In this document: positions 41,068-58,729 of the stretch, piece after piece
Layout: each line of letters begins with the position of its first letter
Position numbering within the stretch: position 1 is the stretch's first letter
Source of the DNA: Pacificibacter maritimus
GTDB lineage: Bacteria > Pseudomonadota > Alphaproteobacteria > Rhodobacterales > Rhodobacteraceae
DNA: 64,000 nucleotides
NCBI RefSeq assembly: GCF_003814915.1
Contig: NZ_RKQK01000004.1
Span: 62,001-126,000 of the forward strand
Direction: 5' to 3'
Made by a program: the position numbers and the translations under genes
The notes under the pieces: model-generated
Databases searched by the model: none
The model's input: the letters and a program-made list of their open reading frames with translations, nothing else
Told to the model about the DNA's origin: nothing

Positions 41068-41982
41068 CTATCTTCCACGAGATAAGATTTGACACAAAGC
41101 ATCCAAATCATCTAAATCTTTATAACTTATAGATAAAACACCATTTTCAGCACCGGAAACATGCGTGATATTCACGCTCATTCCAATCGCCGCAGACAAG
41201 TCCCCTTCAAGCGCGCGTGTGTCAGAATCCTTCTCTGTGGATACATCCTTGGACCGCGTGCGTGTCTTTGTTGCTGGTTTTTCTTTCTTTGCTAGCTTTT
41301 CGGTATCGCGTACAGATAAGCCCTTTTTTACAACTGCGCGCGCCAATTCAGATGGATTGGTTGCAGTAATTAATGCGCGCGCATGCCCTGCCGACAAATC
41401 ACCGGAGACAACAAAGTTTTGCACATCGCTCGGGAGTTGCAATAAGCGCATAAGATTGGCGATATGGCTGCGGCTTTTCCCTAGCGCTTCAGCGAGTTTT
41501 TCTTGGGTATGGCCAAACTTTTCCATCAACTGCTTATATCCAGCTGCTTCCTCGATTGAATTGAGGTCTGCGCGCTGAATATTCTCGATAATAGCGACCT
41601 CAAGAACCTCGATATCATCGTATTCGCGAATGATAATCGGAATATCGTGACGTTTCGCCAATTGGGACGCACGCCAGCGGCGTTCACCTGCCACGATTTC
41701 AAAGTTTTCTTTAACACGCGGACTAGGGCGCACGATCAGCGGTTGAATAACGCCCTTTTCACGAATTGAGTTGGCCAAATCATCCAAATCCGCTTGAACA
41801 AACTGCCGTCTGGGCTGATCAGGGTTGGGCTCAACGCGTTCAATCGGAACAACCATATCAGCACGGCGCGTAGTTGTTTCCTGATCGAGCATCACTGGAT
41901 CATTCGGAATATCCGCCATCAATGCGGAAAGGCCACGACCAAGGCCACGCGCTTTATTCTGCTTGTTTGGGGTCGATGCCAT
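41068..41982 (-). CDS. parB: Chromosome partitioning protein ParB
   Basis: ParB is the CTP-dependent clamp that loads at parS and spreads along the origin region. The 304-residue product starts MASTPNKQNKARGLGRGLSALM, has the ParB/Srx CTPase domain with IRPSPRVKENFEIVAGERRWRAS, the helix-turn-helix TQEKLAEALGKSRSHIANLMRLL, and a C-terminal dimerisation region. It is the last gene of the mnmE-mnmG-rsmG-parA-parB run and lies about 2.3 kb from the nearer of two perfect parS sites. Confidence 0.97.
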   Translation of the reverse strand: MASTPNKQNKARGLGRGLSALMADIPNDPVMLDQETTTRRADMVVPIERVEPNPDQPRRQFVQADLDDLANSIREKGVIQPLIVRPSPRVKENFEIVAGERRWRASQLAKRHDIPIIIREYDDIEVLEVAIIENIQRADLNSIEEAAGYKQLMEKFGHTQEKLAEALGKSRSHIANLMRLLQLPSDVQNFVVSGDLSAGHARALITATNPSELARAVVKKGLSVRDTEKLAKKEKPATKTRTRSKDVSTEKDSDTRALEGDLSAAIGMSVNITHVSGAENGVLSISYKDLDDLDALCQILSRGR

Positions 41983-41985
41983 GGT

Positions 41986-42783
41986 CTATCTCCGTTTACC
42001 TAAAAGTTCTGTGGCCAAGGCACGATATGCTTGGCTACCCTTTGAATGGGTATCATAATCGAGCACTGGAAGCGCAAAAGAAGGTGATTCACTGATACGT
42101 ACGTTGCGCGGAATAACTGTTTTAAACACCAAATCTTGCAAATTATCACGCGCATCCTGTTCGACTTGTCGTGATAAATTATTGCGCTGGTCGTACATTG
42201 TTAACACAATCCCTTCGATACGCAGGTTTGGATTAGCCGTTTGGCGCACCTCACGAACGGTCAACATAAGCTGTGAAAGCCCTTCCAGTGCGAAAAATTC
42301 ACTCTGAAGCGGCACCAAAACCGTGTCCGATGCGACCATAGCATTTACGGTGAGCAAGCTCAGCGACGGAGGACAGTCGATCAATATATAATCAAGAGCA
42401 AAAGAATCCATTGCATGCTGTCGCAGCGCATCATGCAGCAGAAAGCTACGTTTTTCGTTGGCGACCATTTCCATATCGGCCGAGGACAAATCAATCGTTG
42501 CTGGAGATATATATAATCCCTCAATATCAGTGGATTGAATGATTTCATCCAGATCGACATCCCCCATGATCAAATCATAGGTGGTTCTCTCTCGCGCACT
42601 CGCTTCAACTCCTAGGCCTGTTGAAGCATTCCCTTGAGGATCTAGATCGACCACCAAAACACGCATCCCAGTTTCGACAAGGGCAGCGGCGAGATTGATA
42701 GTAGTCGTCGTTTTTCCTACCCCACCCTTTTGATTAGCAATTGCAATAATTTTTGCAAACTCTGGGCGAATAATGTCAGACAC
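41986..42783 (-). CDS. parA: Chromosome partitioning ATPase ParA
   Basis: ParA is the DNA-binding ATPase that pulls ParB-parS complexes apart. The 265-residue product has the deviant Walker A motif NQKGGVGKTTTTIN (residues 17-30), VDLDPQGNAS and the LIDCPPSLSLLTVNAM segment. I chose the GTG at 42783 ([11 protein letters not shown]), preceded by AGGGAA and giving the usual start of Rhodobacterales ParA; a TTG at 42789 is possible. The gene overlaps the end of rsmG by 8 bases. parB follows after 3 bases. Confidence 0.97.
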   Translation of the reverse strand: MSDIIRPEFAKIIAIANQKGGVGKTTTTINLAAALVETGMRVLVVDLDPQGNASTGLGVEASARERTTYDLIMGDVDLDEIIQSTDIEGLYISPATIDLSSADMEMVANEKRSFLLHDALRQHAMDSFALDYILIDCPPSLSLLTVNAMVASDTVLVPLQSEFFALEGLSQLMLTVREVRQTANPNLRIEGIVLTMYDQRNNLSRQVEQDARDNLQDLVFKTVIPRNVRISESPSFALPVLDYDTHSKGSQAYRALATELLGKRR

Positions 42784-43393
42784 GTGCAATATTCCCTACT
42801 TTTAAAACGACAGAGTTTTCATCTGTTTGGCTTTGATACTCGATTACGTCAAATTTCCACTCCAACCGAGCAGTTTCGATTTCTTCTTTGAAGCTTACAC
42901 CTTTCGGGAACAGCGCAACCCCGCCAGATGACAGATGTAATACCGCAAACTCAAGCAATTTTTCGAGTGATGCCAAGGCCCGCGCAGACAGAATATCAGC
43001 ATTAAAACAATTCAGCTTTTCAATTCGTTCTGAATGGACCGAAATTTTTATACCCACCTCTCGCGCGACATTACGCAGAAATGTCGCTTTTCTGATATCA
43101 GACTCAACAAGGTGAAATTCTATTTGAGGCGCAGCGTCTGCGGCCATTATTGCGCAAACCAAACCAGGAAAACCCCCACCTGAACCAATATCAACCCAAG
43201 TTTTAGAACTGTCTGATTTGAGATCAAACACTTGCATTGAATCGATGAAGTGACGATTCCGAAGATCATTAAGAGATAATTTGGAAACCAAATTTATTGC
43301 TGGATTCCATTTTTTTAAAAGATCTTCATATACTTCTAATCTGTCCGATGTTTCACGTGAAACATTTGGAAACACGTTATTACTTAAGGTCAT
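42776..43393 (-). CDS. rsmG: 16S rRNA (guanine-527-N7)-methyltransferase RsmG (GidB)
   Basis: RsmG makes m7G527 in 16S rRNA. The 205-residue product has the [26 protein letters not shown] segment, SAM motif [16 protein letters not shown], and [14 protein letters not shown]. The N-terminal NVSRET peptide is encoded by a perfect parS palindrome (43349-43364), as in many bacteria. Its start overlaps the mnmG stop by 4 bases and its end overlaps parA. Confidence 0.96.
43349..43364. promoter_or_regulatory. parS site 1 (ParB binding, inside rsmG)
   Basis: The 16 bases are the exact universal parS palindrome TGTTTCACGTGAAACA. It encodes part of the N-terminus of RsmG (NVSRET) and lies about 5.3 kb from the centre of the putative oriC. 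Confidence 0.95.
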
Positions 43394-45273
43394 TTAGCAG
43401 CTACTTTTTTCGAAGAAGATTGACGCAATTTGGCCAAAATAAGCGTTGATGCGGCTGGCGTCATCCCTTCAACGCGCGAAGCCTGCCCGATTGTTTGAGG
43501 TCTTACAAGGATGAGTTTGCTACGCAGTTCATTTGATAAGCCACGCAGCTCTGTATAATCAAAATCGTCTGGAATACTATGCGCTTCATCGCGTTTCATT
43601 TTCTCTACGTCACGATTTTGACGCTCGATATAGTTTGCATATAACGCATCGCAGGATAGTTGAGACTGAATTTCAGGATCAACATCGCCAAATTTCGCAT
43701 CAAGAGCGATCAAATTAGTGAAATCAACATCTGGAAACGCCAGAATTTCATAGGCGTTGCGCTTATTTCCATCCGCACTGACGCGAATACCACCCCTCAA
43801 CAATTCCTTTGGCGAAAATGTTTTTGATTGCAAATACTCTCGCGCTCTCGACAGTCGCTCCATTTTTTCATCAAACGCAGCTTTACGGTCCTCTCCAACA
43901 ACGCCTAGACTATAACCTAAACCAGTTAAGCGCTGATCCGCGTTGTCAGCGCGCAGGGTTAATCGAAATTCTGCTCGAGACGTAAACATACGGTAAGGTT
44001 CAGATACGCCGCGTGTGATCAAGTCATCGATCATAACACCGATGTAGGAATCAGATCTGCTGAATGTAACTTGATCCTCGCCTAATGATAACTTGGACGC
44101 GTTCAATCCTGCGACTAAGCCCTGTGCTGCTGCTTCTTCATATCCGGTTGTGCCATTGATCTGACCTGCCAAAAACAAGCCTGGTACATCTTTTACTTCC
44201 AGCGTTGGCCTAAGGGCGCGCGGGTCAACATAATCATATTCAATCGCATAACCAGGCTGTAAAATTTCAACATTCTCTAGACCAACAATAGAACGTACAT
44301 ATGCCTCTTGAACGTCAACTGGCAAGGATGTGGAAATTCCATTTGGATATACCGTGTCGTCATCTAGCCCTTCTGGTTCCAGAAAAATCTGATGTGATGT
44401 TTTATCCGCAAAGCGTACAACTTTATCTTCAATTGATGGGCAATAGCGCGGCCCTACCCCATCAATATGACCACCATACATGGCAGAACGTTCAAGATTG
44501 TCTCGAATAATCTGGTGCGTTTTCTCATTGGTATGAGTAATTCCGCATGATACTTGGCGTGCAGGAGGTGTTTTGTTCATAAACGAAAACATCACTGGTA
44601 AGTCATCACCAGGCTGTTCTTCTAACACTTCCCAATTAATGGTCTTCCCATTTAAACGCGGTGGCGTTCCGGTTTTTAACCGTCCCATAGGGAGCCCAAA
44701 CCCATATAAACGATCAGCCAGCGCAATAGATGGCTGATCACCCATGCGACCACCAGAGTGATTTTGGTCACCTATATGAATAATACCGTTTAGAAACGTG
44801 CCCGTTGTTAAAACCACTGCGCCAGCATTTAAATTGCCTTTATCGCCAAGAGATACTCCCGTGACCTTTCCACCAGACATTACCAAATCCGTGACTTCAC
44901 CTTCGATGATTGTGAGGTTCGGTGTTTTTGATAGCTCTGAAAGCATTTCTTCACGATAGATTTTACGGTCAGCCTGAGCGCGTGGCCCCTGAACGGCAGG
45001 CCCTTTTCGACGATTCAGTAAGCGATATTGAATACCTGCTTTGTCGGCGATACGCCCCATCACCCCATCAAGCGCATCAACTTCACGTACTAAGTGGCCT
45101 TTGCCCAATCCGCCAATAGCAGGATTACAAGACATTACACCGATATTCTCAATTTTTAGCGTCACAAGGGCGGTTTTAGCGCCTGTACGCGCAGAAGCTG
45201 CAGCTGCATCTGCACCAGCATGACCACCACCAACGACAACGACATCATAATCTTGTTGTTTCACGTGAAACAT
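43390..45273 (-). CDS. mnmG: tRNA uridine-5-carboxymethylaminomethyl modification enzyme MnmG (GidA)
   Basis: MnmG with MnmE modifies the wobble uridine of several tRNAs (cmnm5U/nm5U). The 627-residue flavoprotein has the FAD-binding [16 protein letters not shown] near residue 12, the conserved [43 protein letters not shown] and [18 protein letters not shown]. It begins [10 protein letters not shown], and the FHVKQ stretch is written by a second perfect parS site. It lies 15 bases after mnmE and overlaps rsmG by 4 bases. Confidence 0.98.
45257..45272. promoter_or_regulatory. parS site 2 (ParB binding, at the mnmG start)
   Basis: A second exact 16-base parS palindrome TGTTTCACGTGAAACA covers codons 1-6 of mnmG (it includes two bases of the ATG). 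It lies about 3.4 kb from the centre of the putative oriC and 1.9 kb from parS site 1. Confidence 0.95.
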
Positions 45274-45288
45274 TCCTTAGATCTATGG

Positions 45289-46578
45289 TTATTTACCAAT
45301 GCAAAAACTTGAGAAAATCTCATCTAAAAGATTCTCAACATCCACGCGACCAACCAGTGCATCTAGCGCACGGATCGCCGTACGCATGTCTTCAGCTGCC
45401 AATTCAGCGCGTTCTGAGCCCATCAATACCTGATCTCGTCCCGATTCTAAAGTAGTCAAAGCAGTTGTCATAGCTATACGATGGCGTTCATGTGTCGCAG
45501 TTGATGCACCTGCGGCCAGTAAGGATAGACGTTCACAGATTAAACCAACAAGTTTTTCAATGCCTTGGCCTGTATGACCCGATACTGACAACGACGATTC
45601 TGATCCGTCATCATCTTTACCAATAAGCACAATATCGCCATCTCTGGGCGGTATTTCAGGCATGTCATCCTTTGATAGCAATAGAATAACACGTAAGTCT
45701 GCCATATTAGCGCGCTCTTTCGCACGCGCTATACCAAATGTTTCAACTACGTCAGTTGTCTCGCGCAGCCCAGCGGTATCCAAAAGCGTTACCGGTAATC
45801 CAGAAAGCTCCATGCGCACTTCAATTACATCACGGGTTGTACCCGCAACTTCAGAAGTGATCGCGGCTTCGCGCCCCGCTAAGGTATTTAAAAGGGTAGA
45901 TTTTCCCACGTTTGGCGGGCCTACAATAGCGACTTCAAACCCCTCTCGAATACGTTCAGAAATTCGAACCCCAGACACTTCTGCTTCGAGTTCCAACATT
46001 ACATTCGCAAGCAATTCGAGCACTTCTGGCGAGACATCGACAGGGACTTCCTCATCTGCGAAATCAATCGTTGCCTCAATGAGTGCAGCCGCTCTGATCA
46101 AAGATGTGCGCCAGCCTGCAGCTTTATCCCCTAGCGCACCTGATAAAATACGCATCGCTTGTTTACGCTGCGCTTCGGTTTCTGATTCAATTAAATCAGC
46201 GAGGCCTTCGACCTGTGCAAGATCTAGACGCTCGTTTTCCAACGCTCTACGGGTAAATTCCCCTGCCTCGGCCAAACGCAAACCTTCAAAATTTGATAAT
46301 TCTTCAAGGACCGATTTTACGATAGCAACAGAACCGTGCAATTGAAGTTCAGCACTTTGTTCGCCCGTAAAAGACGCGCCTTGTTCAAAACAAATCACCA
46401 AAGCTTCGTCTATAATCTCGCCATGTGCGTTTTTTAGACTGCGTAAAGACGCATAGCGCTGCTTTGGAACAGAGCCGGATAGCTTTTCAACAGTCCAAAA
46501 TGCAAGAGGTCCGGAAATCCGGACCACAGCAACGCCTGCTTTTCCTCTTGCGGACGCAAGAGCATAAATCGTATCCAT
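45289..46578 (-). CDS. mnmE: tRNA modification GTPase MnmE (TrmE)
   Basis: MnmE is the GTPase partner of MnmG. The 429-residue product has the N-terminal tetrahydrofolate-binding domain ([19 protein letters not shown]), the G domain with GPPNVGKST (residues 220-228), the [12 protein letters not shown] switch and DTAGLRET, and the essential C-terminal FCIGK. It is slightly shorter than the E. coli protein (454). It lies 25 bases after rho on the same strand. Confidence 0.97.
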
Positions 46579-46603: not shown

Positions 46604-47875
46604 TTATGCATTCATAGAATCGAAAAATTCCGCATTCGATTTTGTTTGCTTGAGTTTTGATATCAAGAATTCGATCGCATCTGTCGTGCCCATTGGATTT
46701 AGAATGCGGCGCAACAAATATGTTTTCTGAAGATCTTTCGAATCTACTAAAAGCTCTTCTTTGCGCGTACCAGATTTCAAAATATCCATCGCAGGGAACA
46801 CGCGCTTATCAGCAACTTTACGATCCAACACAATTTCAGAGTTACCAGTCCCTTTAAATTCCTCAAAGATGACTTCATCCATGCGTGATCCTGTATCAAT
46901 CAAAGCTGTGGCGATGATTGTCAAAGATCCACCCTCTTCGATGTTACGCGCAGCACCAAAAAAGCGCTTAGGACGCTGCAGAGCATTTGCATCAACACCA
47001 CCTGTCAAAACCTTACCCGAAGACGGCACAACAGTGTTAAAAGCGCGACCAAGACGGGTGATAGAATCCAGTAAGATCACTACATCACGTTTATGTTCGA
47101 CAAGACGTTTAGCTTTCTCGATCACCATTTCAGACACGGCAACGTGACGTGATGCAGGCTCATCGAAGGTTGATGAAATCACTTCACCATTCACAGACCG
47201 TTGCATGTCTGTCACCTCTTCTGGGCGCTCATCAATCAAAAGCACGATCAAATAGCATTCAGGATGGTTAATACCGATTGAGGTCGCGATATTTTGCAAC
47301 AAAACAGTTTTACCGGTCCGCGGCGGCGCAACAATCAAGGACCGCTGACCTTTACCAATCGGCGCTACAAGATCGATGATCCGTGCAGAACGATCTTTTA
47401 GTGTTGGATCTTCGATTTCCATATTCAACCGTTCGTTCGGATAGAGCGGCGTTAGGTTGTCGAAATTGATTTTATGACGAGATTTTTCAGGCTCTTCAAA
47501 GTTAATCTGCGTAACCTTGGTGATGGTAAAGTAGCGCTCATTGTCGTTTGGCGCTTGCATCAACCCTTCGACAGTATCGCCTGTTCTCATCCCGAACTGA
47601 CGTAAAATTTCTGGCGACACGTAAATATCATCTGGGCCTGGCAAGTAATTTGCTTCAGGCGACCGTAAAAAGCCGAACCCATCTTGCAAAACCTCCAAAA
47701 CGCCGTCGCCTGTAATTTCCCAATCTTCTTCAGCACGCTCTTTCAGGATTGAGAACATCATCTCACCCTTACGCATTGTAGAAGCGTTTTCAATTTCAAG
47801 TTCTTCCGCCATTGAAAGTAAATCTTTAGGCGTTTTTGCTTTAAGATCAGAAAGATTTAGGGAGTTAACAGTCAT
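46604..47875 (-). CDS. rho: Transcription termination factor Rho
   Basis: Rho is the hexameric RNA helicase that ends many transcripts. The 423-residue product has the N-terminal Rho domain, the RNA-binding cold-shock-like part ([25 protein letters not shown]), Walker A APPRTGKT (residues 183-190) and Walker [14 protein letters not shown], and the [28 protein letters not shown] segments. The ATG at 47875 is chosen rather than a TTG at 47887. Proximity to hemJ and the origin is typical for alphaproteobacteria. Rho dependence may explain why many convergent genes here lack hairpin terminators. Confidence 0.98.
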
Positions 47876-47996
47876 CAAGACATCCAAACTTAGAACGCAA
47901 AGCGATCAGTTTCATATTGGTGTGAAATATCCCAGTAAGCCGGACGGCAGGGATTTAAGGATCAATAGCCAGACTATCCTTGCGAGTCAATCTATC

Positions 47997-48449
47997 TCAG
48001 ATAGGGCGTGCGATAATCATAACGACGATCACAATCATTAAAACGGTAGGGAGTTCATTCATCAAACGATAATGTTTACCACTACGGCTATTTTCACCCT
48101 GCACAAAGTCTTTTCGTCTAACAGCACACCAATGATGGAACCACGTCATAGCGATGACGCAAAAGGCTTTTATCCAAGGCCATGCATCCGTCCAGTCAAT
48201 CACGCCTGGTGTCAACACCAGTAAAAGCCCAAAGATCCATGTGGAAATTGCTGCAGGGTTCATGATTAGTTTTAAAAGCTTTTTTTCCATGTCTTGGAAT
48301 AAGAGATCTGTTTCACTACCGACTGTCACGTTTTCGGTATGACGGACAAACAATCTAGGTAGATAAAAAATACCAGCCATCCATGCGATCACGGAAATCA
48401 CATGCAATGATTTAGTCCATGGATATAGGTCCAACAGTAAATAGCTCAT
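47997..48449 (-). CDS. hemJ: Protoporphyrinogen oxidase HemJ (YgbF/UPF0093-type membrane protein)
   Basis: HemJ is a small membrane enzyme that oxidises protoporphyrinogen IX to protoporphyrin IX in organisms lacking HemG or HemY. The 150-residue product has four hydrophobic helices, the family motif WTKSLHVISVIAWMAGIFYLPRLFVRH (first helix, conserved His), KLLKLIMNPA in the loop, and FHHWCAVRRKDFVQGEN before the last helix. The ATG at 48449 follows GGAG by 8 bases. It is the first gene to the left of the putative oriC and read away from it; the other heme genes hemH and hemW are also in the window. Confidence 0.93.
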   Translation of the reverse strand: MSYLLLDLYPWTKSLHVISVIAWMAGIFYLPRLFVRHTENVTVGSETDLLFQDMEKKLLKLIMNPAAISTWIFGLLLVLTPGVIDWTDAWPWIKAFCVIAMTWFHHWCAVRRKDFVQGENSRSGKHYRLMNELPTVLMIVIVVMIIARPI

Positions 48450-48525
48450 TTCAAGCACTCCAAGTTTCAGTGCCCTATTAAAATAATATAAGAAAGAAAG
48501 AAAAGATGATGTTGTTTGTAGGGCC

Positions 48526-48557
48526 TGTGGATCATGTGGATTAACGGCTTATCCAAA
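48526..48557. promoter_or_regulatory. Cluster of three DnaA boxes, left side of oriC
   Basis: TGTGGATCA (48526-48534) and TGTGGATTA (48535-48543) are abutting minus-strand boxes and TTATCCAAA (48549-48557) is a plus-strand box, each with eight of nine bases matching TTATCCACA. A weaker ATATCCACT (seven of nine) follows at 48563-48571. Confidence 0.72.
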
Positions 48558-48628
48558 AACTTATATCCACTGATAGAAATCTAATAATGTGAAATGAAAA
48601 TCTGGGGATATTTCTTAAAAACCCAATA

Positions 48629-48643
48629 TTAATAAAGCATTAA
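48629..48643. promoter_or_regulatory. Perfect CtrA-type site TTAA-N7-TTAA in the AT-rich part of oriC
   Basis: TTAA at 48629-48632 and TTAA at 48640-48643 are separated by exactly seven bases, the full consensus for the cell-cycle regulator CtrA. An imperfect copy (TTAA-N7-TAAA) occurs in the stretch around 48681-48695. The AT-rich background raises the chance of coincidence. Confidence 0.45.
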
Positions 48644-48836
48644 ATAGAAAATCTCTTTGGAATAACTTTTAGGATAAAGTTTAATTAAGTCTAAATATGA
48701 ATTTTATTAACAGGCAAAAAAATAATTAGTCCACTCAGGAAAACATGATCAAGTTTTTTGGAAAACAGTCGACTTTTCCCCAAGGTCTATCCGTGCCATG
48801 GTTATCCCGATAAGCGCCAACACAGTTTGGACAGTT

Positions 48837-48845
48837 TTTTCCACA
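48837..48845 (+). promoter_or_regulatory. DnaA box TTTTCCACA, right edge of oriC
   Basis: TTTTCCACA matches the relaxed DnaA box TTWTNCACA at all nine positions and lies 11 bases before the maf start codon. Related imperfect sequences TTTTCCCCA (48774-48782) and TTATCCCGA (48802-48810) are close by. Confidence 0.6.
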
Positions 48846-48856
48846 GGATCATCAAC

Positions 48857-49456
48857 ATGCCCCAAAATTTAATTCTGGCCTCGGGGTCGTCGATTCGTCA
48901 GACTTTGCTCTCAAATGCGAATGTATCATTTGATATAAATGTGCCGCGTATTGATGAAGATAGTATTAAGGATGCGTTGATTGCCGATAAAACGCCCCCC
49001 CGCGATATTGCCGACGCATTGGCCGAGGGCAAAGCCCGTAAAATTTCATTGAAACACCCCGAAGCTATTGTTCTGGGATGCGATCAGGTTTTGTCATTCC
49101 AAGGCCAGTTGTTTTCGAAACCAAAAGATCGCAGCGAGGCAAAAGATCAGCTTCTACGTCTAAATGGCGAGCGGCATAAATTGTTTTCCGCCGCAGTTAT
49201 TTACGAACTAGGCGCTCCAAAGTGGCGATTTATCGGTGAAGTTAAATTGCAAATGAAACAAAATTCCGAAAGCTACCTAGACGATTATCTAACGCGCAAT
49301 TGGGATTCCGTGCAAAATTCAGTGGGAGGCTATAAATTGGAAGAAGAAGGGTCCCGCTTGTTTTCACGCATTGACGGCGATTATTTCACCGTTTTAGGTT
49401 TGCCGCTCCTAGAAATACTTGGATACCTAGGTCAAACAGGAGCAATTTCATCATGA
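48857..49456 (+). CDS. maf: Maf-family nucleoside triphosphate pyrophosphatase
   Basis: Maf proteins hydrolyse modified nucleotides such as dTTP/UTP or m7GTP analogues and can influence septation. The 199-residue product starts MPQNLILASGSSIRQTLL (substrate loop ASGSxxR) and has VLGCDQVLSF (metal site), SAAVIY and the C-terminal NSVGGYKLEEEGSRLFSRIDGDYFTVLGLPL. The ATG at 48857 follows AGGA; longer frames would run into the origin region. Next to oriC and followed by aroE with a 4-base overlap, as in other alphaproteobacteria. Confidence 0.93.
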   Translation: MPQNLILASGSSIRQTLLSNANVSFDINVPRIDEDSIKDALIADKTPPRDIADALAEGKARKISLKHPEAIVLGCDQVLSFQGQLFSKPKDRSEAKDQLLRLNGERHKLFSAAVIYELGAPKWRFIGEVKLQMKQNSESYLDDYLTRNWDSVQNSVGGYKLEEEGSRLFSRIDGDYFTVLGLPLLEILGYLGQTGAISS

Positions 49457-50283
49457 GTGTTAAAATTCCAATGGCAGGTGTAATTGGATCACCAATTGGT
49501 CACAGCCGTTCGCCAGATTTGCATGGTTTTTGGTTAAAACGCTACGGTATCCAAGGTCATTATGTGCATTTAGATGTGGCACAAAGCGATCTAGAACAAG
49601 TCTTGCGTGCGATGCCGAAAATGGGGTTTGTGGGCGCAAATGTCACAATTCCACACAAAGAAACCGTTCTCGGAATCGCAGATATCGTAACCGATCGCGC
49701 AGCGCTTATCGGGGCGGCAAACACACTGATTTTCCGACCAGATGGCAAGTTGCATGCTGATAATACTGACGGTTACGGATTTGTTGAAAATCTAAGATCA
49801 AATGCAAAATGGGACCCTAAAGCAGGCCCTTCTGCCATTTTTGGTGCTGGCGGCGCAGCGCGCGCCGTGATTGCATCGCTACTGGATGTCGGTGTGGATG
49901 AAATTCGCATCACCAATCGCACAAGATCGCGTTCTGATGCCTTGAAAGCTGAATTTGGTAGTAAAATCACTGTTTACGACTGGGTGCATGCTGCCGATAT
50001 GCTCGAAGGTGCGATGACAGTTGTGAATTCGACCTCGATGGGCATGGTTGGTAAAAGCGAATTCAATATCTCTTTAAATGCCCTTTCACCGAAAGCAGTT
50101 GTCACTGATCTCGTTTATACGCCTCTGCGTACAGAGTTTCTTGAAAAAGCGGCTCAGAATGGTTGCCAAACCGTTGATGGTCTCGGAATGTTGCTGCATC
50201 AGGCTGCACCCGGTTTTGAACGCTGGTTTGGTGTGGCCCCCGTTGTAGATGATGAAACGCGGCAAGTTTTGCTTTCAACATGA
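49453..50283 (+). CDS. aroE: Shikimate dehydrogenase
   Basis: AroE reduces 3-dehydroshikimate to shikimate with NADPH. The 276-residue product has VIGSPIGHSRSPDLHGFWL (substrate binding), VTIPHKE with catalytic lysine, NTLIFRPDGKLHADNTDGYGF with catalytic Asp, and the nucleotide motif IFGAGGAARAV followed by ITNRTRSRSD. The start overlaps the maf stop and the end overlaps coaE, each by 4 bases. Confidence 0.96.
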   Translation: MSVKIPMAGVIGSPIGHSRSPDLHGFWLKRYGIQGHYVHLDVAQSDLEQVLRAMPKMGFVGANVTIPHKETVLGIADIVTDRAALIGAANTLIFRPDGKLHADNTDGYGFVENLRSNAKWDPKAGPSAIFGAGGAARAVIASLLDVGVDEIRITNRTRSRSDALKAEFGSKITVYDWVHAADMLEGAMTVVNSTSMGMVGKSEFNISLNALSPKAVVTDLVYTPLRTEFLEKAAQNGCQTVDGLGMLLHQAAPGFERWFGVAPVVDDETRQVLLST

Positions 50284-50897
50284 CACAGTCACGCCAATTC
50301 GTAATCGGCCTTACAGGGTCGATTGGTATGGGAAAGTCGACAACCGCGCAGATGTTTCGATCGCTCGGCATACCAGTTTGGGATGCTGACCAAACCGTAC
50401 ATGATCTTTATTCACAAAACGCCAATGCGATTTCTAAAATTGCAAAACTATGTCCCGAAGCCGCGACTTCCGAGGGTGTTGATCGTAGTGTTTTGAAAAA
50501 TTGGATCAAGACCACCACCGATGGTTTAAAGAAAATCGAAGCAATCATTCATCCCTTAGTTGCTACGGAAAGACAGGCATTTTTAGACACTAACCTTTCT
50601 AAAATTGTAGTTTTAGACGTGCCGCTTTTGTTTGAAACAGGGCTAGTCGATCATGTGGATTACGTCGTAGTCGTATCCGCGCCGGCTGATGTTCAAAGGG
50701 AAAGAGTACTCGCAAGGCCCGACATGACACTCCAGCAGTTCGACTACATTCTGTCCAAGCAAATGCCAGACGCCGAAAAACGTAGTTTAGCTGATGCTGT
50801 CGTTGAAACGCTTACCCTTGAAACAGCGCAAAGAGCAGTGCAAAACATCGTGGCTGAGATCCAAGAAAACCTGATCAAAGAGAATTCTAATGCGTGA
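50280..50897 (+). CDS. coaE: Dephospho-CoA kinase
   Basis: CoaE phosphorylates dephospho-CoA in the last step of coenzyme A synthesis. The 205-residue product has the P-loop [12 protein letters not shown] (residues 10-21), the substrate-binding [12 protein letters not shown], the DVPLLFETG segment and the LID region [11 protein letters not shown]. The stop overlaps dnaQ by 8 bases. Confidence 0.95.
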
Positions 50898-51633
50898 AAT
50901 CGTTCTTGATACTGAAACCACAGGATTCGATCCCTTAACAGGGGACAGATTGGTTGAAATTGGTGCGATTGAACTGGACAATCACTTAGCAACAGGGCGG
51001 ACATACCACCAATATATCAATCCTAAGCGCACTATGCCTGCAGGTGCCTTCGGGGTGCACGGTATTGGCCCCGATATCCTTGAACCACCCCGCCCCGCAC
51101 GCGCGGATGAAGTCACGCTTCTTGATAAGCCAGTGTTTAAAGATATCGCGCAGGACTTTTTGGATTTTATCGGCGACAGCACCCTTGTGATACACAATGC
51201 GTCTTTTGATATTAAATTTCTGAATGCTGAGCTTAAGACAGCGGGTTTGCGTCAAATACCTTGGGAACAGGCCCTCGATACATTGGCAATAGCGCGTAAA
51301 AAATTCCCTGGCTCACCGGCAACGCTCGATGCGTTGTGTCGTCGGTTTCACATCGACAATTCAAACCGCACATTGCACGGCGCTTTGCTGGATTCTGAAA
51401 TTTTAGCGGAAGTTTATTTGGAATTAATTGGTGGTCGTCAGCCAGATCTGGTTTTAGCCCCAACCCCTAAAGATGATGACAAATCCGACGCAGCAGCGCA
51501 GGCTGGTACATGGCGTCCATCGCGGCGCCCAAAACCACTGCCAAGCCGCCTTACAGACAAAGAAGCCGCCGACCATGCTGCCTTTGTTGAGGCGATGGGC
51601 GACGGCGCTTTGTGGACTAAAACCAATAGTTAG
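50890..51633 (+). CDS. dnaQ: DNA polymerase III epsilon subunit (3'-5' exonuclease)
   Basis: DnaQ is the proofreading subunit of the replicative polymerase. The 247-residue product has the three exonuclease motifs: Exo [11 protein letters not shown] (Asp7, Glu9), Exo II around [17 protein letters not shown], and Exo III with [17 protein letters not shown]. The C-terminal tail (about residues 190-247) is basic and low in structure and would hold the polymerase-binding segment. It ends 2 bases from the convergent secB. Confidence 0.95.
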
Positions 51634-51635
51634 GC

Positions 51636-52133
51636 CTAGTTGGTTGGGGCATCGCCTTTTTGCGCTTCAGCACGGCGTTGCAGATCTTGGCGGTATAATT
51701 GTACGAAATCGATGTTGTCCAAGTTGAGTGGCGGGAAGCCACCATCACGGGTTACATCGTGTACGATACGGCGTGTGAATGGGAATAACATACGAGGGCA
51801 TTCGATCATCAAGAAAGGATGCATCTGCGCGTCTGGCACATTTTCGATGTGGAAAATGCCTGCGTAATCCAACTCAAGAATGAACAAAGTGTTCTCACCA
51901 TTCTCGGTTTCAGATTTTACATTCAACTTGATCGCGATTTCGAACTGGTGCTCTGCGCCTTCGCGCTTTTTCGCATCAAGAGCAACCTGCACAGAAATAT
52001 TCGGACGACCGTCAGCCTTTAAGCCTTTTTGCGCAAGAATATTTTCAAAAGACATATCACGCACAAATTGGCCCAAAATTTGCATTTTGACTTGTTCCGC
52101 CGCTGGTGCTGTTGCTTCTTCTGTATCAGCCAT
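51636..52133 (-). CDS. secB: Protein-export chaperone SecB
   Basis: SecB keeps preproteins unfolded and hands them to the C-terminal zinc tail of SecA. The 165-residue product has VKMQILGQFVRDMSFENI, AEHQFEIAIKLNVKSE, LELDYAGIFHIENVP, IECPRMLFPFTRRIVHDVTRDGGFPPL and a short C-terminal tail. Alphaproteobacterial secB commonly lies near dnaQ and the origin. It is followed (in the direction away from dnaQ) by fxsA upstream. Confidence 0.95.
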   Translation of the reverse strand: MADTEEATAPAAEQVKMQILGQFVRDMSFENILAQKGLKADGRPNISVQVALDAKKREGAEHQFEIAIKLNVKSETENGENTLFILELDYAGIFHIENVPDAQMHPFLMIECPRMLFPFTRRIVHDVTRDGGFPPLNLDNIDFVQLYRQDLQRRAEAQKGDAPTN

Positions 52134-52190
52134 GTGTATTTCCTCAAAAAGACTAAAGTTGACGCTTTGTATCAGGTTGAAAAAGCCGGC

Positions 52191-52685
52191 TCAATGGCGC
52201 GTCCAACCTGAGGGGCTATTATTGTCGTTATCTTCGCTTGAAACATTTTCCCACTCGCCATCAATCACGTTTGGATCTTGCGGTTTTGGTCTTGCGCCAG
52301 CCTCAAAATGTGATCCACCGCCGACGGTAAAGCTTTGCAATTTGATACGCTTACGCATTTCAATAAACATTTTGGTTCGAAATGCAGGGATCAGAAGTAA
52401 AAAACCCACAAAATCGGTGAAAAAGCCTGGCGTTAAAAGCAAGGCGCCAGAAAACAAAATCATAGCCCCATGGGCAAGTGGTTCACTGGGGTCGCGCAAT
52501 TCTCCGAACGAGTTTCTGACCTGAGACAAGGCCAGCGCTCCTTGTTGACGTACCAAATACGTACCAAGTACAGCCGTCAAAATCACGATCGCCAATGTGG
52601 ACAGCAATCCAATGGCGCCACCGACTTGAATAAACAAAGCGATTTCAATCACGGGGACTGCGACAAAAAGAGCAAATAACCACAT
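52191..52685 (-). CDS. fxsA: FxsA-family membrane protein
   Basis: This 164-residue protein has two to three hydrophobic segments (near residues 3-20, 28-48 and 75-105) and the FxsA-type residues MWLFALFVAVPVIEIALFIQVGGAIG, with GALLLTPGFFTDFVGFLLLIP as the conserved second part. The C-terminal half is hydrophilic. FxsA of E. coli suppresses F-plasmid exclusion of phage T7; the normal role is unknown. The ATG at 52685 is preferred to longer frames, with AAAGG upstream. It is divergent from timA. Confidence 0.9.
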   Translation of the reverse strand: MWLFALFVAVPVIEIALFIQVGGAIGLLSTLAIVILTAVLGTYLVRQQGALALSQVRNSFGELRDPSEPLAHGAMILFSGALLLTPGFFTDFVGFLLLIPAFRTKMFIEMRKRIKLQSFTVGGGSHFEAGARPKPQDPNVIDGEWENVSSEDNDNNSPSGWTRH

Positions 52686-52791
52686 AGAATGACCTTTCAA
52701 ATTTCTTGCGACTGGTGGACTTGGTACCACCGACAACCTACATAGGAACAAAGAGCGCATTTTACTACGCTCCATTGGAAAAGAGGTATCG

Positions 52792-53451
52792 ATGGACAGT
52801 TCACTGGTCTCCCTTCTGGTTCTGGCCGGAATAGCAGTTTTTTTGGTTTTGCGATTGCGAAACATTCTTGGTACGCGTGATGGCTTTGAACAGCCACGCA
52901 CAGATCCGCTGAAGCAAAACGAAGATCCCAAACGCCAGTTTGAGGTGATTGAGGGTGGCGTTGATCACGATATCGTGGATAACGTACCTGAGGGATCGCG
53001 CGCTGCGGAAAACCTAGCTGAATTAAAGCGCAACGAACCTGACTTTTCTGTGTCTGACTTTTTGACAGGCGCAAGTTCAGCTTACGAAATGATCTTGATG
53101 GCCTTCGAAAACGGCGATCTTTCTTCTGTTTCTGACTTTATTTCGGACGATGTCGAAGAAGCCTTCCAGTCTGTAATCGACAGCCGCAAAGATGCAGGCC
53201 TGACCGTTGAAGCACAGTTCATTGGCCTGCATGAAACACAGATCATCGATGTTGAAATCGACAAAGACGCCAACGAAGAAGAAATCAAAGTGCGCTTCGT
53301 CTCAGAAATCACCACTGTGGCGCGCAATGATGAGGGTGTGATTGTCGAAGGCGATCCAAACAAGATCAAACGCCAAAAAGATATATGGGTTTTCGCGCGC
53401 GAGATCGGCAGCGCCAATCCAAATTGGCAACTGGTGGCAACTGGCGCATGA
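52792..53451 (+). CDS. timA: Tim44-like (TimA) membrane-associated protein
   Basis: The 219-residue product has one N-terminal hydrophobic span (about residues 5-20), a variable acidic linker, then a Tim44-like domain (about residues 85-219; FLTGASSAYEMILMAFENGDLSSVSDFISDDVEEAF and the final DIWVFAREIGSANPNWQLVAT). Alphaproteobacterial TimA is related to mitochondrial Tim44 and associates with the inner membrane. Its biochemical role is unsettled. The stop overlaps mltA by 4 bases, so it is in one operon with a lytic transglycosylase and an Smr protein. Confidence 0.9.
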   Translation: MDSSLVSLLVLAGIAVFLVLRLRNILGTRDGFEQPRTDPLKQNEDPKRQFEVIEGGVDHDIVDNVPEGSRAAENLAELKRNEPDFSVSDFLTGASSAYEMILMAFENGDLSSVSDFISDDVEEAFQSVIDSRKDAGLTVEAQFIGLHETQIIDVEIDKDANEEEIKVRFVSEITTVARNDEGVIVEGDPNKIKRQKDIWVFAREIGSANPNWQLVATGA

Positions 53452-54491
53452 CTTTAACGGGGCTTGCAGGTGCTGCTTTGGCAGCCGTGCTGGCCCTGTC
53501 AGCGCCCGCCTATAGTGAGGGCGAAACCGTGGCAAAACTCCTTTCCTTTTCCGACTTAGACGGTTGGGATGAAGATGCGCACGATGAAGCTCTCAGAGTT
53601 TTTCTAAATTCTTGCGACCGCATCAAAGGGTTTGAGTGGCCGCAAGTCTGCCGCGTCGCAAGTCAGCAAACCAATGCCAAAACTTTCTTCGAATTATTCT
53701 TTCGCCCTGTCCTGATCGAAGATGCAAACGACGCTTTGTTTACTGGGTATTTCGAACCAGAGCTGTCTGGATCTTTGACCAGAACCGCCAAATACCGCTA
53801 CCCAGTGTATAGTTTGCCAAAAGACAGAACCGCACGCTCACCCTATTATACGCGGCGTGATATTGGCGAGGGTGCGCTTGCAGGCCAAGGCTTAGAAATT
53901 GCTTGGGTCGACGATCCCGTGGAATTGTTTTTTTTGCAGGTCCAAGGATCGGGACGTATTCAACTTACAAACGGCAGTACAATTCGTATCGGATATGCGG
54001 GTCACAACGGGTATAACTACAATTCGATTGGCAAAGAACTCATCAATCGCGGTGTCTATTCTGAACACCAAGTGTCTGCGCAGGTGATCAAGAATTGGGT
54101 CCGCAGAAATCCCGTTGAGGGCCAGGAATTATTATACACAAATCCGTCATATGTTTTTTTCACTCGGCGCGATGAGTTGGATGCTGCCTCAGGTCCTATC
54201 GGTGCAATGAGCAGATCTATAACTCCCATGCGCAGTATTGCGGTGGATCCCGCTTATATCACTCTTGGCGCGCCCGTCTGGGTGGAAAAAGACGGTAATG
54301 AACCCCTAAGGCGTCTGATGATTGCGCAAGATACGGGGTCCGCAATCAAAGGGGCACAGCGCGCCGATGTATTTTATGGTACGGGTGACACAGCAGGTGA
54401 ATTGGCAGGTCGTATTCGTGACACGGGACGCATGGTTGTTTTGATGCCAATTCAACTTGCTTACGGATTAGAGGAACAGAATGAAACATGA
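53448..54491 (+). CDS. mltA: Membrane-bound lytic murein transglycosylase A-like protein MltA
   Basis: MltA cleaves the glycan strands of peptidoglycan with formation of 1,6-anhydro ends. The 347-residue product has a signal peptide (MTLTGLAGAALAAVLALSAPAYS), no lipobox cysteine, the MltA domain (FTGYFEPELSGS, YRYPVY, LEIAWVDDPVELFFLQVQGSGRI, AGHNGYNYNSIG) and a 3D domain with the acid residues in IAQDTGSAIKGAQRADVFYG. The start overlaps the timA stop (ATGA) and the end overlaps smr by 4 bases. Compared with E. coli, it is probably periplasmic rather than lipid-anchored. Confidence 0.93.
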   Translation: MTLTGLAGAALAAVLALSAPAYSEGETVAKLLSFSDLDGWDEDAHDEALRVFLNSCDRIKGFEWPQVCRVASQQTNAKTFFELFFRPVLIEDANDALFTGYFEPELSGSLTRTAKYRYPVYSLPKDRTARSPYYTRRDIGEGALAGQGLEIAWVDDPVELFFLQVQGSGRIQLTNGSTIRIGYAGHNGYNYNSIGKELINRGVYSEHQVSAQVIKNWVRRNPVEGQELLYTNPSYVFFTRRDELDAASGPIGAMSRSITPMRSIAVDPAYITLGAPVWVEKDGNEPLRRLMIAQDTGSAIKGAQRADVFYGTGDTAGELAGRIRDTGRMVVLMPIQLAYGLEEQNET

Positions 54492-55096
54492 AACGGCGCG
54501 GCAAAAAAACACTGAGTGACGAAGATCGCTCGTTGTGGGAAGAGGTCAAAAAGACCACGATTCCTTTGCATGCACAGCCTATGCCCCTGCAGGATATGGG
54601 TGAGCTTGTGCCAAAACCCATTGAACGCGTTGAGACTGCTAAACCTCTGCGTCAACAGATCAAAGAATTCAGTTTGGGCAGCAAGGCAAAAACACCACCG
54701 CCCAACCACAGCCTGATGCCATCTATTTCTGAAGCTCTTAAACAAGCGCCCGTGCAAATGGATTATAAAAAATTTGCAAAAATGCGGCGTGGTAAACTTG
54801 CACCTGAAGCGCGTATTGATCTTCACGGTATGACAGTTGCACAGGCGCATCCCGTTTTGACCGATTTTATCTTGTCATCTCACGCGCGCGGTTTGCGACT
54901 TGTTTTGGTGATTACAGGAAAAGGCAAAGATCGCGATCAAGGCGGCCCAATTCCTACACCTATAGGTATTTTAAAAAATCAATTACCTCACTGGTTGCGC
55001 TCTGCGCCTTTGCGTTTGGTGGTTATGCAAGTGACCGAAGCGCATTTATCACATGGCGGTTCAGGGGCGTATTACGTGTATCTACGCCGTAGCTAG
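54488..55096 (+). CDS. Smr-domain protein
   Basis: A disordered, charged N-terminal half (about residues 1-100, with RRGKKTLSDEDRSLWEEVKK) precedes an Smr domain (about residues 112-202) with the motif RIDLHGMTVAQAHPVL and TGKGKDRDQGGPIPTPIG ending AHLSHGGSGAYYVYLRR. Smr domains are nucleases or RNA-binding modules also found in MutS2; this is the stand-alone SmrA-type form. The 3' end overlaps the convergent MFS gene by 15 bases. It closes the timA-mltA-smr operon. Confidence 0.9.
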   Translation: MKRRGKKTLSDEDRSLWEEVKKTTIPLHAQPMPLQDMGELVPKPIERVETAKPLRQQIKEFSLGSKAKTPPPNHSLMPSISEALKQAPVQMDYKKFAKMRRGKLAPEARIDLHGMTVAQAHPVLTDFILSSHARGLRLVLVITGKGKDRDQGGPIPTPIGILKNQLPHWLRSAPLRLVVMQVTEAHLSHGGSGAYYVYLRRS

Positions 55097-56302
55097 CAGT
55101 CTGCGCGCATAGCGCATGCCAATATAGGCAAGCGCGGCAGTTAAGGTCATATAGGTGGCATAACCGATCAACTGCACCTTCATCGTAATATCTGCATCAA
55201 TTAATATACCCGATACGCCTGGCCCAATTGCAGACCCAAATACCATTACAGCAGCCCCAGCAGCTTTGATCGCGCCAAGATGTTGGGTGCCATAGCTTTC
55301 AGCCCAAAAGGCGCCAATCATCGGCCCCTGCCCGCCCGTACCAATGCCCACAATTGTCATCGCAAAAGATGCCCAGACCAAATTCGGTGACAAAGAAAGT
55401 GCAATGAAACCGACAGCAAACGGTATTGCTAAAAGTGGCAAAATACGCACAGCCCCCCATCTATCGACAGCAATACCCGATAGAAAATTCATAGCAACGG
55501 ATCCAAGGGTCATCAGCGGAAACAACGCAACAAAATGAATCAACTCCCAACCCTTTTCTTCAACCAATGTCACTTGTTGGAAAAACAGTGCTGTGATCCA
55601 AATGGGCGGCCCCAACAAAAAGGGTAAACACACCCAAAACAGCCAGTGGCGCAACATCGCGCTACGGCTCCAATGCTTGCCGTTCATCCCAAGGGTGTAG
55701 TTGGTTTTTGCAATTGACTGTGGTGTGCGCTCTTCGCGCAAAAGCGACAAAATGAGTGGTACCAAAACCACCGACAAAATCGCAGCAAAAACCCAGAGTT
55801 CGCGCCAGCTAAAATACGCCATGAGCGATACAAAAATGAATGGCAAGATCGCGTTGCCAGCCGCATTTCCCAGCGATGCAATTGATAAAGCGCGGCCTCG
55901 GGTTCCGTGAAACCAACGTGCCATTGCGACCATAGCAATATGCACCGACATACCCTGTCCGCCAAAGCGTAAGGCAAAGATGATGAAAATTAAAGACAAT
56001 GCTGTCGGCGCGGCCGCCATCGCCAAGCACGCCAAACCAAGCCCCACCAAGGCGATCGGCGCAAGTCGCCGCACGCGAAATTTGTCGGTCAAAGTGCCCG
56101 CCCAAATCATAACCAAAGCCGAGGCCATGGTTCCAGCGGAATAAATCCAGCCCCAAGCACTGTTGCTTAAGCCAAATTCATTTCGAATTTCACCAGCAAA
56201 TACCGATATAAAATAGGTTTGTCCGTAAGATGATGTTAGGCACAGCAAAAACCCTACCAGTAACCAGCGGGCGTTCTGAACGATAAATTGGGTATAGGTC
56301 AT
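55082..56302 (-). CDS. Major facilitator superfamily transporter
   Basis: The 406-residue product has twelve predicted hydrophobic segments and MFS loop signatures (GTLTDKFRVRRLAPIALVG between helices 2 and 3; DRWGAVRILPLLAIPFAVG in the second half). The substrate cannot be told; the closest family resemblance is to monocarboxylate/oxalate-formate antiporter-like transporters. It is not clustered with a metabolic operon: hslU lies upstream with about 70 bases between and the smr gene converges on it. Confidence 0.85.
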   Translation of the reverse strand: MTYTQFIVQNARWLLVGFLLCLTSSYGQTYFISVFAGEIRNEFGLSNSAWGWIYSAGTMASALVMIWAGTLTDKFRVRRLAPIALVGLGLACLAMAAAPTALSLIFIIFALRFGGQGMSVHIAMVAMARWFHGTRGRALSIASLGNAAGNAILPFIFVSLMAYFSWRELWVFAAILSVVLVPLILSLLREERTPQSIAKTNYTLGMNGKHWSRSAMLRHWLFWVCLPFLLGPPIWITALFFQQVTLVEEKGWELIHFVALFPLMTLGSVAMNFLSGIAVDRWGAVRILPLLAIPFAVGFIALSLSPNLVWASFAMTIVGIGTGGQGPMIGAFWAESYGTQHLGAIKAAGAAVMVFGSAIGPGVSGILIDADITMKVQLIGYATYMTLTAALAYIGMRYARRLLATA

Positions 56303-56373
56303 ATGCGTGGTTTACGCCGTCTACCGAGAAAGAAAAGCGGATTTTGACGGCGTAAGCTAAATCTAGGCGTTGG

Positions 56374-57678
56374 TTACAGCATAAACCTGCTGACATCCGC
56401 AGTTTCAGCCATTTCACCAACACTGCTGCGCACATAAGTTTCGTCGACCAACACAGTTTCTCCGCCGCGATCAGGGGCTGTAAAGGATAGGTCTTCGAAC
56501 ACACGTTCCAGAATCGTGTACAAGCGGCGTGCACCGATATTTTCAAGACTAGCGTTCACTTCGGTCGCCACAGCGGCAATCGCTTTGATGCCACTTTCAG
56601 TGAAAGTCACAGTCACTTTTTCTGTGTCCATCAAGGCGGTGTATTGTAACGTCAACGCATTGTCGGTTTCTGTCAAAATCCGTACAAAATCATCCTCGCC
56701 CAACGCTTGTAATTCAACGCGAATTGGCAAGCGACCTTGTAATTCGGGCAATAGATCAGACGGCTTTGCGACATGAAAAGCACCTGAGGCGATAAACAAA
56801 ATATGGTCCGTTTTTACGGGCCCATGTTTGGTTGAAACTGTTGTGCCTTCGATCAAGGGTAACAGATCGCGTTGCACGCCTTCACGTGAAACATCGCCAC
56901 CGCGGGCATCCGTGCGGGCGCAGACTTTGTCAATTTCATCCAAGAATACGATGCCGTTTTGTTCAACAGATTCGAGGGCGGCGCGCGTGACGGTTTCATC
57001 ATCCAGAAGCTTGTCAGCCTCTTCCGAAATTAAAACATCGTAGCTTTCAGACACCTTGACTTTCTTGCGCACGGTGCGCCCTGCAAAGGCTTTTCCGAAT
57101 AAGTCACCAAGGTTCATCATGCCACCTATTTGTGGTTGACCTGGAACCTCGAACCCACCCATGGGCGATGACGTATCTTGCATTTCAAGTTCTATTTCAG
57201 TGTTATCCAATGCGCCAGATTTTAGCTTTTTACGGAACATTTCGCGGGTTTGCTCGCGTGCATCAGTGCCTGCAATGGCATCTATTACACGGTCTTCAGC
57301 CGCCTGATGCGCTTTGGCTTTTACATCTTCGCGCATGTGTTCACGTGTCTGCGAAATCGCGGAATCTACCAAATCACGCACGATTTGTTCTACGTCACGA
57401 CCAACATAGCCCACTTCGGTGAACTTTGTGGCCTCAACCTTGATAAAGGGCGCGCGTGCAAGTTTGGCTAAGCGACGAGAAATCTCGGTTTTGCCAACGC
57501 CAGTTGGTCCGATCATCAAAATGTTCTTAGGATATACTTCGTCGCGTAGATCATCCTCTAGATGCTTGCGGCGCCAACGATTGCGCATGGCTACAGCGAC
57601 TGCGCGCTTGGCATCATTTTGACCGATAATAAAACGATCAAGTTCAGATACAATTTCGCGCGGGGTTAGATCGGTCAT
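56374..57678 (-). CDS. hslU: ATP-dependent protease ATPase subunit HslU
   Basis: HslU is the AAA+ unfoldase that feeds substrates to the HslV peptidase. The 434-residue product has [30 protein letters not shown], Walker [10 protein letters not shown] (residues 57-65), the pore motif region [17 protein letters not shown], an I-domain of about 110 residues, Walker [13 protein letters not shown] and the C-terminal helix ending FML. The ATG at 57678 overlaps the hslV stop by 4 bases; an upstream frame to 57723 reads into hslV. Confidence 0.97.
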
Positions 57679-58232
57679 TTTGTAATTTTCTCCACGGTCA
57701 GTTTGCCATTGGTATAGACACAAATGTCGGCGGCAATTGCCATCGCTTCGCGTGCGATCTGTTCAGCGTTCTTGTCGGTTTCCATCAACCCACGAGCAGC
57801 TGCTAAGGCGAAATTTCCACCTGACCCGATCGCGGCTATGTCATGTTCAGGTTCCAACACATCGCCAGCGCCAGTGATCACTAAAAGCTCAGAGCCATCG
57901 GTGACGATAAGCATAGCTTCCAATTTTTGCAGATACTTATCGGTTCGCCAGTCCTTGGCCAACTCCACGCTCGCGCGCGCCAGATGGCCAGGTGTGGCTT
58001 CAAGTTTGGCCTCCAAGCGCTCAAGCAGTGTAAACGCATCCGCTGTTGAGCCAGCAAAACCAGCCACAACTTCGTGTCCACCTGGTTTCAGGCGGCGTAC
58101 TTTGCGTGCAGTGCCTTTGATCACGGTCTGACCCAAACTGACTTGGCCGTCGCCTGCGATTACAACTTCACCGTCGCGCTTTACGCCGATAATGGTGGTT
58201 CCGTGCCAGCCGGGAAATGTAGTATCGGTCAT
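57675..58232 (-). CDS. hslV: ATP-dependent protease peptidase subunit HslV
   Basis: HslV is the threonine peptidase of the HslUV complex. The 185-residue precursor has a propeptide of 11 residues ([11 protein letters not shown]) and then the mature N-terminus [21 protein letters not shown] with catalytic Thr12, followed by [31 protein letters not shown] and [17 protein letters not shown]. This extended N-terminus is usual in alphaproteobacteria. The gene starts the hslVU operon, about 440 bases after the start of trxA, which also reads left. Confidence 0.96.
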
Positions 58233-58303
58233 GATGTGTCCTCTCGATAAGGTTCATATGTGCATGAGCGTTCGTGAGTACAACCATGCGCAAAGAGTGC
58301 CAG

Positions 58304-58334
58304 AAAAAAGGGGCACCACTGGCACCCCTTTTTT
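58304..58334 (-). terminator. Terminator downstream of trxA
   Basis: AAAAAAGGGG (58304-58313) pairs with CCCCTTTTTT (58325-58334); inner GCC/GGC-type pairing is imperfect in the 11-base loop. Read on the minus strand it gives a GC-containing stem and a T-run about 20 bases after the trxA stop. Confidence 0.75.
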
Positions 58335-58354
58335 AAATAACTTTCTGGACCAGT

Positions 58355-58675: not shown

Positions 58676-58729
58676 TGGAATTCTCCTAATAATGTGTTGA
58701 ACCGAACCTAGGTGCCCCACCTTAAAGCG

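Follow-up and report, generated by a model that had tools for sequence, protein, structure and literature searches.

The hemJ-maf intergenic region as the probable chromosomal replication origin of Pacificibacter maritimus

The experimentally identified chromosomal origin of Caulobacter, Cori, lies between hemE and a COG1806 gene, and the same report states that GC (guanine-cytosine) skew did not suffice to locate the origin in several alphaproteobacteria (PMC1914354). For the Rhodobacteraceae, origins have been predicted with Ori-Finder in 101 strains, Celeribacter included (PMC6699656). The closest described system for opening the strands is the basal unwinding system (BUS) of Bacillus subtilis and other bacteria, which consists of DnaA boxes, a spacer and DnaA-trios (PMC6669920, PMC8287927) and is reported to follow a rule of at least three NAN triplets no more than 16 bp from a DnaA box (PMC8287927). 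Here, a window of 64 kb from Pacificibacter maritimus was analysed (positions 62001-126000 of contig NZ_RKQK01000004.1, called C4 below, in a genome totalling 3.08 Mb), and the whole intergenic region between hemJ and maf is presented as the candidate origin, oriC (48459..48856 of the window, no strand, 398 bp, GC 0.32). We give this assignment a probability of about 0.94. The site is of an ordinary kind, the Rhodobacteraceae type, and the features of the Ori-Finder predictions, as the main text of that survey gives them, hold here except for a 21.6-kb skew offset.

The hemJ-maf gap is read as oriC because of its density of DnaA boxes, its AT content, the only parS sites lying nearby, the skew switch on contig C4, and the conserved length, place and motifs of the gap; the start of replication proposed here by an earlier sequence-only reading of the window is supported on these grounds. 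Box cluster, AT tract, conservation, synteny, parS sites and contig-scale skew switch are all observed at the level of sequence. The gap had also been described as gene-free and AT-rich, and this was borne out. GC is 0.33 for 48450-48856 against 0.49 for the window, and the gap is the most AT-rich place on contig C4, all six of the lowest-GC 300-bp windows of the contig (step 50) overlapping it. It contains no open reading frame (ORF) of at least 80 amino acids except the upstream part of the maf frame, in which an ORF starting with TTG reaches back to 48758; the ATG at 48857 was taken as the maf start, and hemJ starts at 48458 (GTG) or 48449 (ATG). An Rfam scan of 47900-49000 gave 0 matches.

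Four DnaA boxes, each one mismatch from TTATCCACA, were confirmed at the positions previously listed. Box 1, TGATCCACA (48526..48534, minus strand), is abutted directly by box 2, TAATCCACA (48535..48543, minus); box 3, TTATCCAAA (48549..48557), and box 4, TTTTCCACA (48837..48845), are on the plus strand, and box 4, which starts 20 bp before the maf start, is the only one of the four that matches TTWTNCACA exactly. The weaker copies that had been mentioned were likewise found. They include ATATCCACT (48563..48571, plus, two mismatches), ATATCCCCA (48603..48611, minus), at whose place the three nearest relatives have TTATCCCCA, TTATCCTAA (48669..48677, minus), with the family consensus CTGTGGATAA, and the two plus-strand sites TTTTCCCCA (48774) and TTATCCCGA (48802) within 48774..48810. 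In 48450-48856 there are 4 boxes with at most one mismatch (shuffle mean 0.13) and 11 with at most two (shuffle mean 1.8; 12 in 48400-48900), and neither the 4 nor the 11 was reached in any of 500 dinucleotide shuffles. Boxes were further counted in 22,871 windows of 410 bp (step 50) over 1.16 Mb, or 38 percent of the genome, comprising all of C4, 20-kb samples of C1, C2, C3 and C5, and 60 kb of C6. Four or more boxes with at most one mismatch occurred in only 2 of these windows, both on the hemJ-maf gap. The cluster is above chance and is the densest in the scanned 38 percent. Two perfect boxes in the same orientation within 30 bp of each other were found nowhere in the genome.

The parS sequence TGTTTCACGTGAAACA occurs in two copies genome-wide, both perfect and both near the gap, one at the start of mnmG (45257..45272, no strand, 3.2 kb from the gap) and one inside rsmG (43349..43364, no strand, 5.1 kb away); no third site was found in the genome with up to 2 mismatches. 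The genes parA and parB lie 5.7-7.4 kb from the gap.

Along contig C4 the GC skew is predominantly negative until about 130 kb and predominantly positive beyond, and the opposite switch occurs between 640 and 690 kb of C1, where 9 of 9 samples are positive up to 640 kb and 10 of 11 are then negative, as at a terminus. Samples were positive on C5 (4/4) and negative on C3 (7/7) and C2 (8/9). Among contigs C1 to C6, which the skew analysis covered, an origin-type switch sits on C4; the small contig C6 also changes sign. On C6 (72 kb; L064-L066) the skew goes from -0.017 through +0.048 to +0.077 across the first 60 kb; this contig may be a piece of the chromosome or else an extrachromosomal replicon that carries an origin of its own, and the RepA-type initiator family PF10134 had no match in the genome.

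Several observations weigh against the hemJ-maf gap as the origin, and the main one, which concerns its exact place, is the skew offset. Measured from the maf start, the cumulative minimum (C4:132469) is displaced by 21.6 kb toward the maf side. When third codon positions were fitted with gene strand taken into account, the switch again fell at 132-138 kb, the log-likelihood at 110 kb being worse by 28; gene direction alone is not the full cause of the offset, because the strand-corrected fit still favours the far side. In the relatives G006, G009, G010 and G017 the minima are displaced to the same side by +16, +28.5, +28.5 and +30 kb (the stretches of G009 and G010 end at +33 kb), and in G017 9 of 10 far skew samples, taken on both sides, are negative. 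The sign step at the gap itself coincides with divergent genes. Furthermore, none of the four boxes is a perfect TTATCCACA, the box scan left about 62 percent of the genome unread, the one dnaA gene found lies 75 kb to the left, and 5 of 15 outgroup gaps between hemE and COG1806 have no box with at most one mismatch.

The offsets would suit a start near the skew minimum (C4:132-138 kb, beyond the window and about 21-28 kb past the gap), with the gap as merely an intergenic region regulated by DnaA. We consider this very improbable. The region at 131-137 kb holds scattered single boxes and no cluster, and the parS sites are on the opposite side of the gap. The local minimum in the complete genome of the relative G004, which is collinear over the origin region, falls on the hemJ side about 0.6 kb beyond the gap, at a distance of 1.0 kb from the maf start; all 5 far samples before it are negative and all 5 after it (round to the contig start) positive. 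In all six genomes compared the skew rises across the maf start, from between -0.067 and -0.125 over the preceding 4 kb to between +0.003 and +0.092 over the following 4 kb, although the divergent genes contribute to this step. An origin at the raw minimum was rejected on the box, G004 and parS evidence. The cumulative skew, which the sequence-only reading had named as a check and, should it point elsewhere, as grounds for refutation, gave a divided answer: on a fine scale it does point elsewhere in the genome itself, with the minimum 21.6 kb off, and in G004 the minimum is next to the gap.

With oriC placed in the hemJ-maf gap, the offset itself calls for a cause. After the step at maf the skew falls, in all six genomes, where a block of genes (hslUV and addAB-like, named by eye) is oriented toward the origin, and this block probably adds to the offset; old inversions, of which G017 has one nearby, or a past shift may make up the remaining part. 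In G017 (C1:1634001-1834000, L200-L209), compared with P. maritimus and G004, a segment at about +20 to +38 kb from maf is inverted, and in a larger rearrangement the far right side has moved to the far left; the wider skew of this genome is disturbed. Skew alone would misplace the origin by 16-30 kb in P. maritimus and in four of the five relatives compared; the placement given here is for a draft genome with an offset skew signal.

The gap is conserved among relatives. A Maf search gave a match in 40 of 41 genomes, and 30 loci were kept; divergent hemJ lay upstream in 22 of them, with a gap of 377-403 bp in 21. Among 80 named loci, 62 had divergent hemJ upstream (55 gaps of 330-500 bp and 7 of 2.2-2.4 kb) and 18 did not, two of these having fewer than 450 bases upstream. 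The 76 gaps of 330-500 bp, less 8 identical copies, gave 68 distinct sequences, a set outside which stand locus L090 (1220 bp), the 7 loci of 2.2-2.4 kb and the loci without hemJ. For alignment, L127 and L136, of odd length, and two near-duplicates were also removed, leaving 64 gaps. Some records are named otherwise (for example metagenome-assembled genomes labelled Rhodospirillales, Verrucomicrobia or Exiguobacterium) and were taken as mislabelled or mis-binned. In this set, limited to 330-500 bp, the length is 369-423 bp in 66 of the 68 gaps and 336 and 491 bp in the other two. At least two boxes with at most one mismatch are present in 62 of the 68; the sequences share ancestry, and such counts are not independent trials.

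The best-conserved region of the 64 aligned gaps is the left edge, where leftward DnaA boxes come after GATGAT...GTAGGG. Among 15-bp blocks the three most conserved are 48498-48512 (AAGAAAAGATGATGT, the best), 48510-48524 (TGTTGTTTGTAGGGC) and, third, 48529-48543 (TGTGGATTA), which is mainly the second leftward box. Box 1 is weakly conserved in this alignment, and a perfect TTATCCACA stands at its place in 11 of 19 same-genus loci. Between the triplets described below and box 1 lies the spacer GTAGGGCC (48518..48525, plus), within which GTAGG (48518-48522) is conserved at 0.86-0.95 in the 64 gaps. GATGAT stands 8-35 bp before a leftward box (at most two mismatches) in 53 of the 68 gaps, compared with 14 of 1360 shuffles, a figure that is descriptive and not a test, the motif having been picked after viewing the same alignments. 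Among the 15 misses are L069 and L070, two of the closest relatives, in which GTTGATG replaces GATGAT.

Could the conserved left block instead be the promoter or leader of hemJ, the boxes regulating hemJ and maf and not the start of replication? The block lies upstream of hemJ, some 50 bp from it, and the genes on the two sides of the gap diverge. A scan of 48400-48900 gave 0 terminators and 0 promoters of sigma-70-like type (shuffle mean 2.4; other promoter types were not covered). Seven loci lacking hemJ were also compared. The left neighbour was examined in L116, L122, L132, L133 and L157 and is rho by eye; all five keep TGTGGATTA at 315-375 bp before maf, and one of the five has the exact GATGAT. 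The other two, L089 and L167, have TGTGGATG and TGTGGATTT at a similar place. The promoter, leader or regulatory reading is, on this evidence, very improbable, and the reading of the gap as oriC is retained.

At the left edge of the proposed oriC, three DnaA-trio-like triplets, TAG TAG AAA (48502..48510, plus; top strand AAAGATGAT), are read 3'-5' on the top strand away from box 1, to which they are proximal. An A/T-rich tract at 48478..48504 (no strand), picked by composition, is the probable first-melting stretch or DNA unwinding element. At 20 to 60 bp from the left edge AT is 0.80 here and 0.77 in the family mean, the top of the family profile; windows at 160 to 260 bp also reach 0.80 in P. 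maritimus, and the choice of the unwinding element rests on the family.

As in the BUS of the cited reports, tandem boxes face triplets across a short spacer, and at least three NAN triplets lie within 16 bp of a one-mismatch box. The differences are that the triplets are 3'-TAG-5' (top strand GATGAT) whereas the BUS consensus given there is 3'-GAT-5', and that P. maritimus is at the minimum of three triplets, with a long spacer of 15 and no fourth triplet. Six congeners have 8 triplets with a middle A on the putative DnaA strand and a spacer of 11, while P. maritimus has 3 NAN triplets with the spacer of 15 measured from the box at 48526, an arrangement that 18 of 300 shuffles of its own gap also reach. 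With at least three NAN triplets at a box of at most one mismatch (any box in the gap counting), 45 of 68 gaps passed against 26 of 680 shuffles, and 17 of 19 same-genus loci passed (L084 and L086 failed); with at least four, 26 of 68 gaps and 8 of 680 shuffles passed, P. maritimus not being among the former. Boxes of up to two mismatches raised the count to 57 of 68, but 195 of 680 shuffles then passed too, and for P. maritimus alone that looser setting is hardly informative (153 of 300 own shuffles pass). Its top-scoring triplet run sits at another, chance-like box, and the run discussed here is the one at the conserved place.

The left-edge module thus resembles a known strand-opening element in its sequence and offers a compact strand-opening candidate for the Rhodobacteraceae. 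A description of it in this family was not recognised in the literature searched, supplementary lists of predicted BUS sequences (PMC8287927) aside, and a left-edge GATGAT module is not mentioned in the Ori-Finder survey (PMC6699656), supplements aside; we make no claim that it is unpublished. It is tentatively suggested, as a doubtful extension, that GATGAT(GAT)...GTAGG with leftward boxes is a family-specific unwinding code of Rhodobacteraceae origins, conserved above most boxes and outlasting the boundary genes (hemE, COG1806, sometimes hemJ), which would be read by DnaA in a 3'-TAG-5' register or by an unknown second factor.

DnaA binding, opening and initiation at the gap, which we infer, may be depicted as follows. 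DnaA would bind the tandem boxes 1 and 2 (leftward, at 48526 and 48535), aided by weaker boxes across the gap. A filament of ATP-bound DnaA would then grow toward hemJ over the spacer and onto one strand of the triplet-rich tract, and by stretching one strand of the A-rich tract at about 48478-48510 it would melt the duplex, where helicases would be loaded. ParB, bound at both of the parS sites (3-5 kb off), would segregate the new origins. The C-terminal sequence of DnaA looks like the usual box-binding domain, and is presumably that.

The gene neighbourhood had been taken as that of the alphaproteobacterial origin. This holds for the wider slot, which lies next to maf-aroE as in the Caulobacter type; at the edges the locus is a derived form without hemE and COG1806, and hemJ and maf are the boundaries. 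The likeness to Cori includes the same chromosomal slot, with the hemJ side followed by the maf-aroE side (read in Roseibium, L164), a length of about 400 bp, AT-richness, DnaA boxes, and parAB close by in P. maritimus. It differs from Cori in CtrA-like sites, with one full TTAA-N7-TTAA here (48629..48643, no strand) and five CtrA sites reported for Cori (PMC1914354). This site is a weak lead: 6 of the 68 gaps have a full site, compared with 28 of 1360 shuffles (imperfect sites being outside the count), and it stands at the homologous place only in P. maritimus and its close relatives L069 and L070.

In the outgroup the order is hemE, gap, COG1806, maf, with 15 gaps of 279-510 bp, 1 of which contains GATGAT with a box. 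The hemE gene of P. maritimus is at C3:267787, away from the gap, and PF03618 (COG1806) has 0 matches in its genome, the control matching in Caulobacter, and 0 in the 20 same-genus genomes, its own included; PF03618 is present in 11 of 41 genomes, and two of these, G020 and G023, belong to the same bacterial family. Judging from these gene distributions, the origin seems to have remained where it was when its classical neighbours departed, and the locus would then be a clear case of an origin that stays put while neighbouring genes are replaced. At L090 (G020), the twenty-second gap with divergent hemJ, COG1806 stands between the 1220-bp gap and maf, with hemJ opposite; it is a possible intermediate in the loss of boundary genes.

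An origin at dnaA, as in many other bacteria, is the least probable alternative and was rejected, as the single boxes there (at most one mismatch; C4:33920, 34871 and 35299) form no cluster, a breakpoint at 34 kb has a log-likelihood of -119 against the best, and parS and parAB are absent from the dnaA neighbourhood.

On the left, hemJ (47997..48458, minus; TIGR00701, E 2.7e-43) is followed by rho (46604..47887, minus; TIGR00767) and by mnmE, mnmG, rsmG, parA and parB (41068..46578, minus), the last two assigned by family matches; the parA match is below the NCBIfam cut-off and above that of Pfam AAA_31. On the right are maf (48857..49456, plus; PF02545) and aroE, coaE and dnaQ (49453..51633, plus). 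The statement that the genes on both sides point away from the gap applies nearby, from hemJ to parB and from maf to dnaQ; further on, from 2.8 kb past the maf start, seven ORFs at 51636-62125 face it (51636-52133, 52191-52931, 55082-56302, 56374-57723, 57675-58232, 58355-58720 and 58730-62125). Those at 56374-62125, named by eye as hslU, hslV, thioredoxin and addA-like, face the origin from no more than 14 kb away, and their orientation is also kept in G004 and G017.
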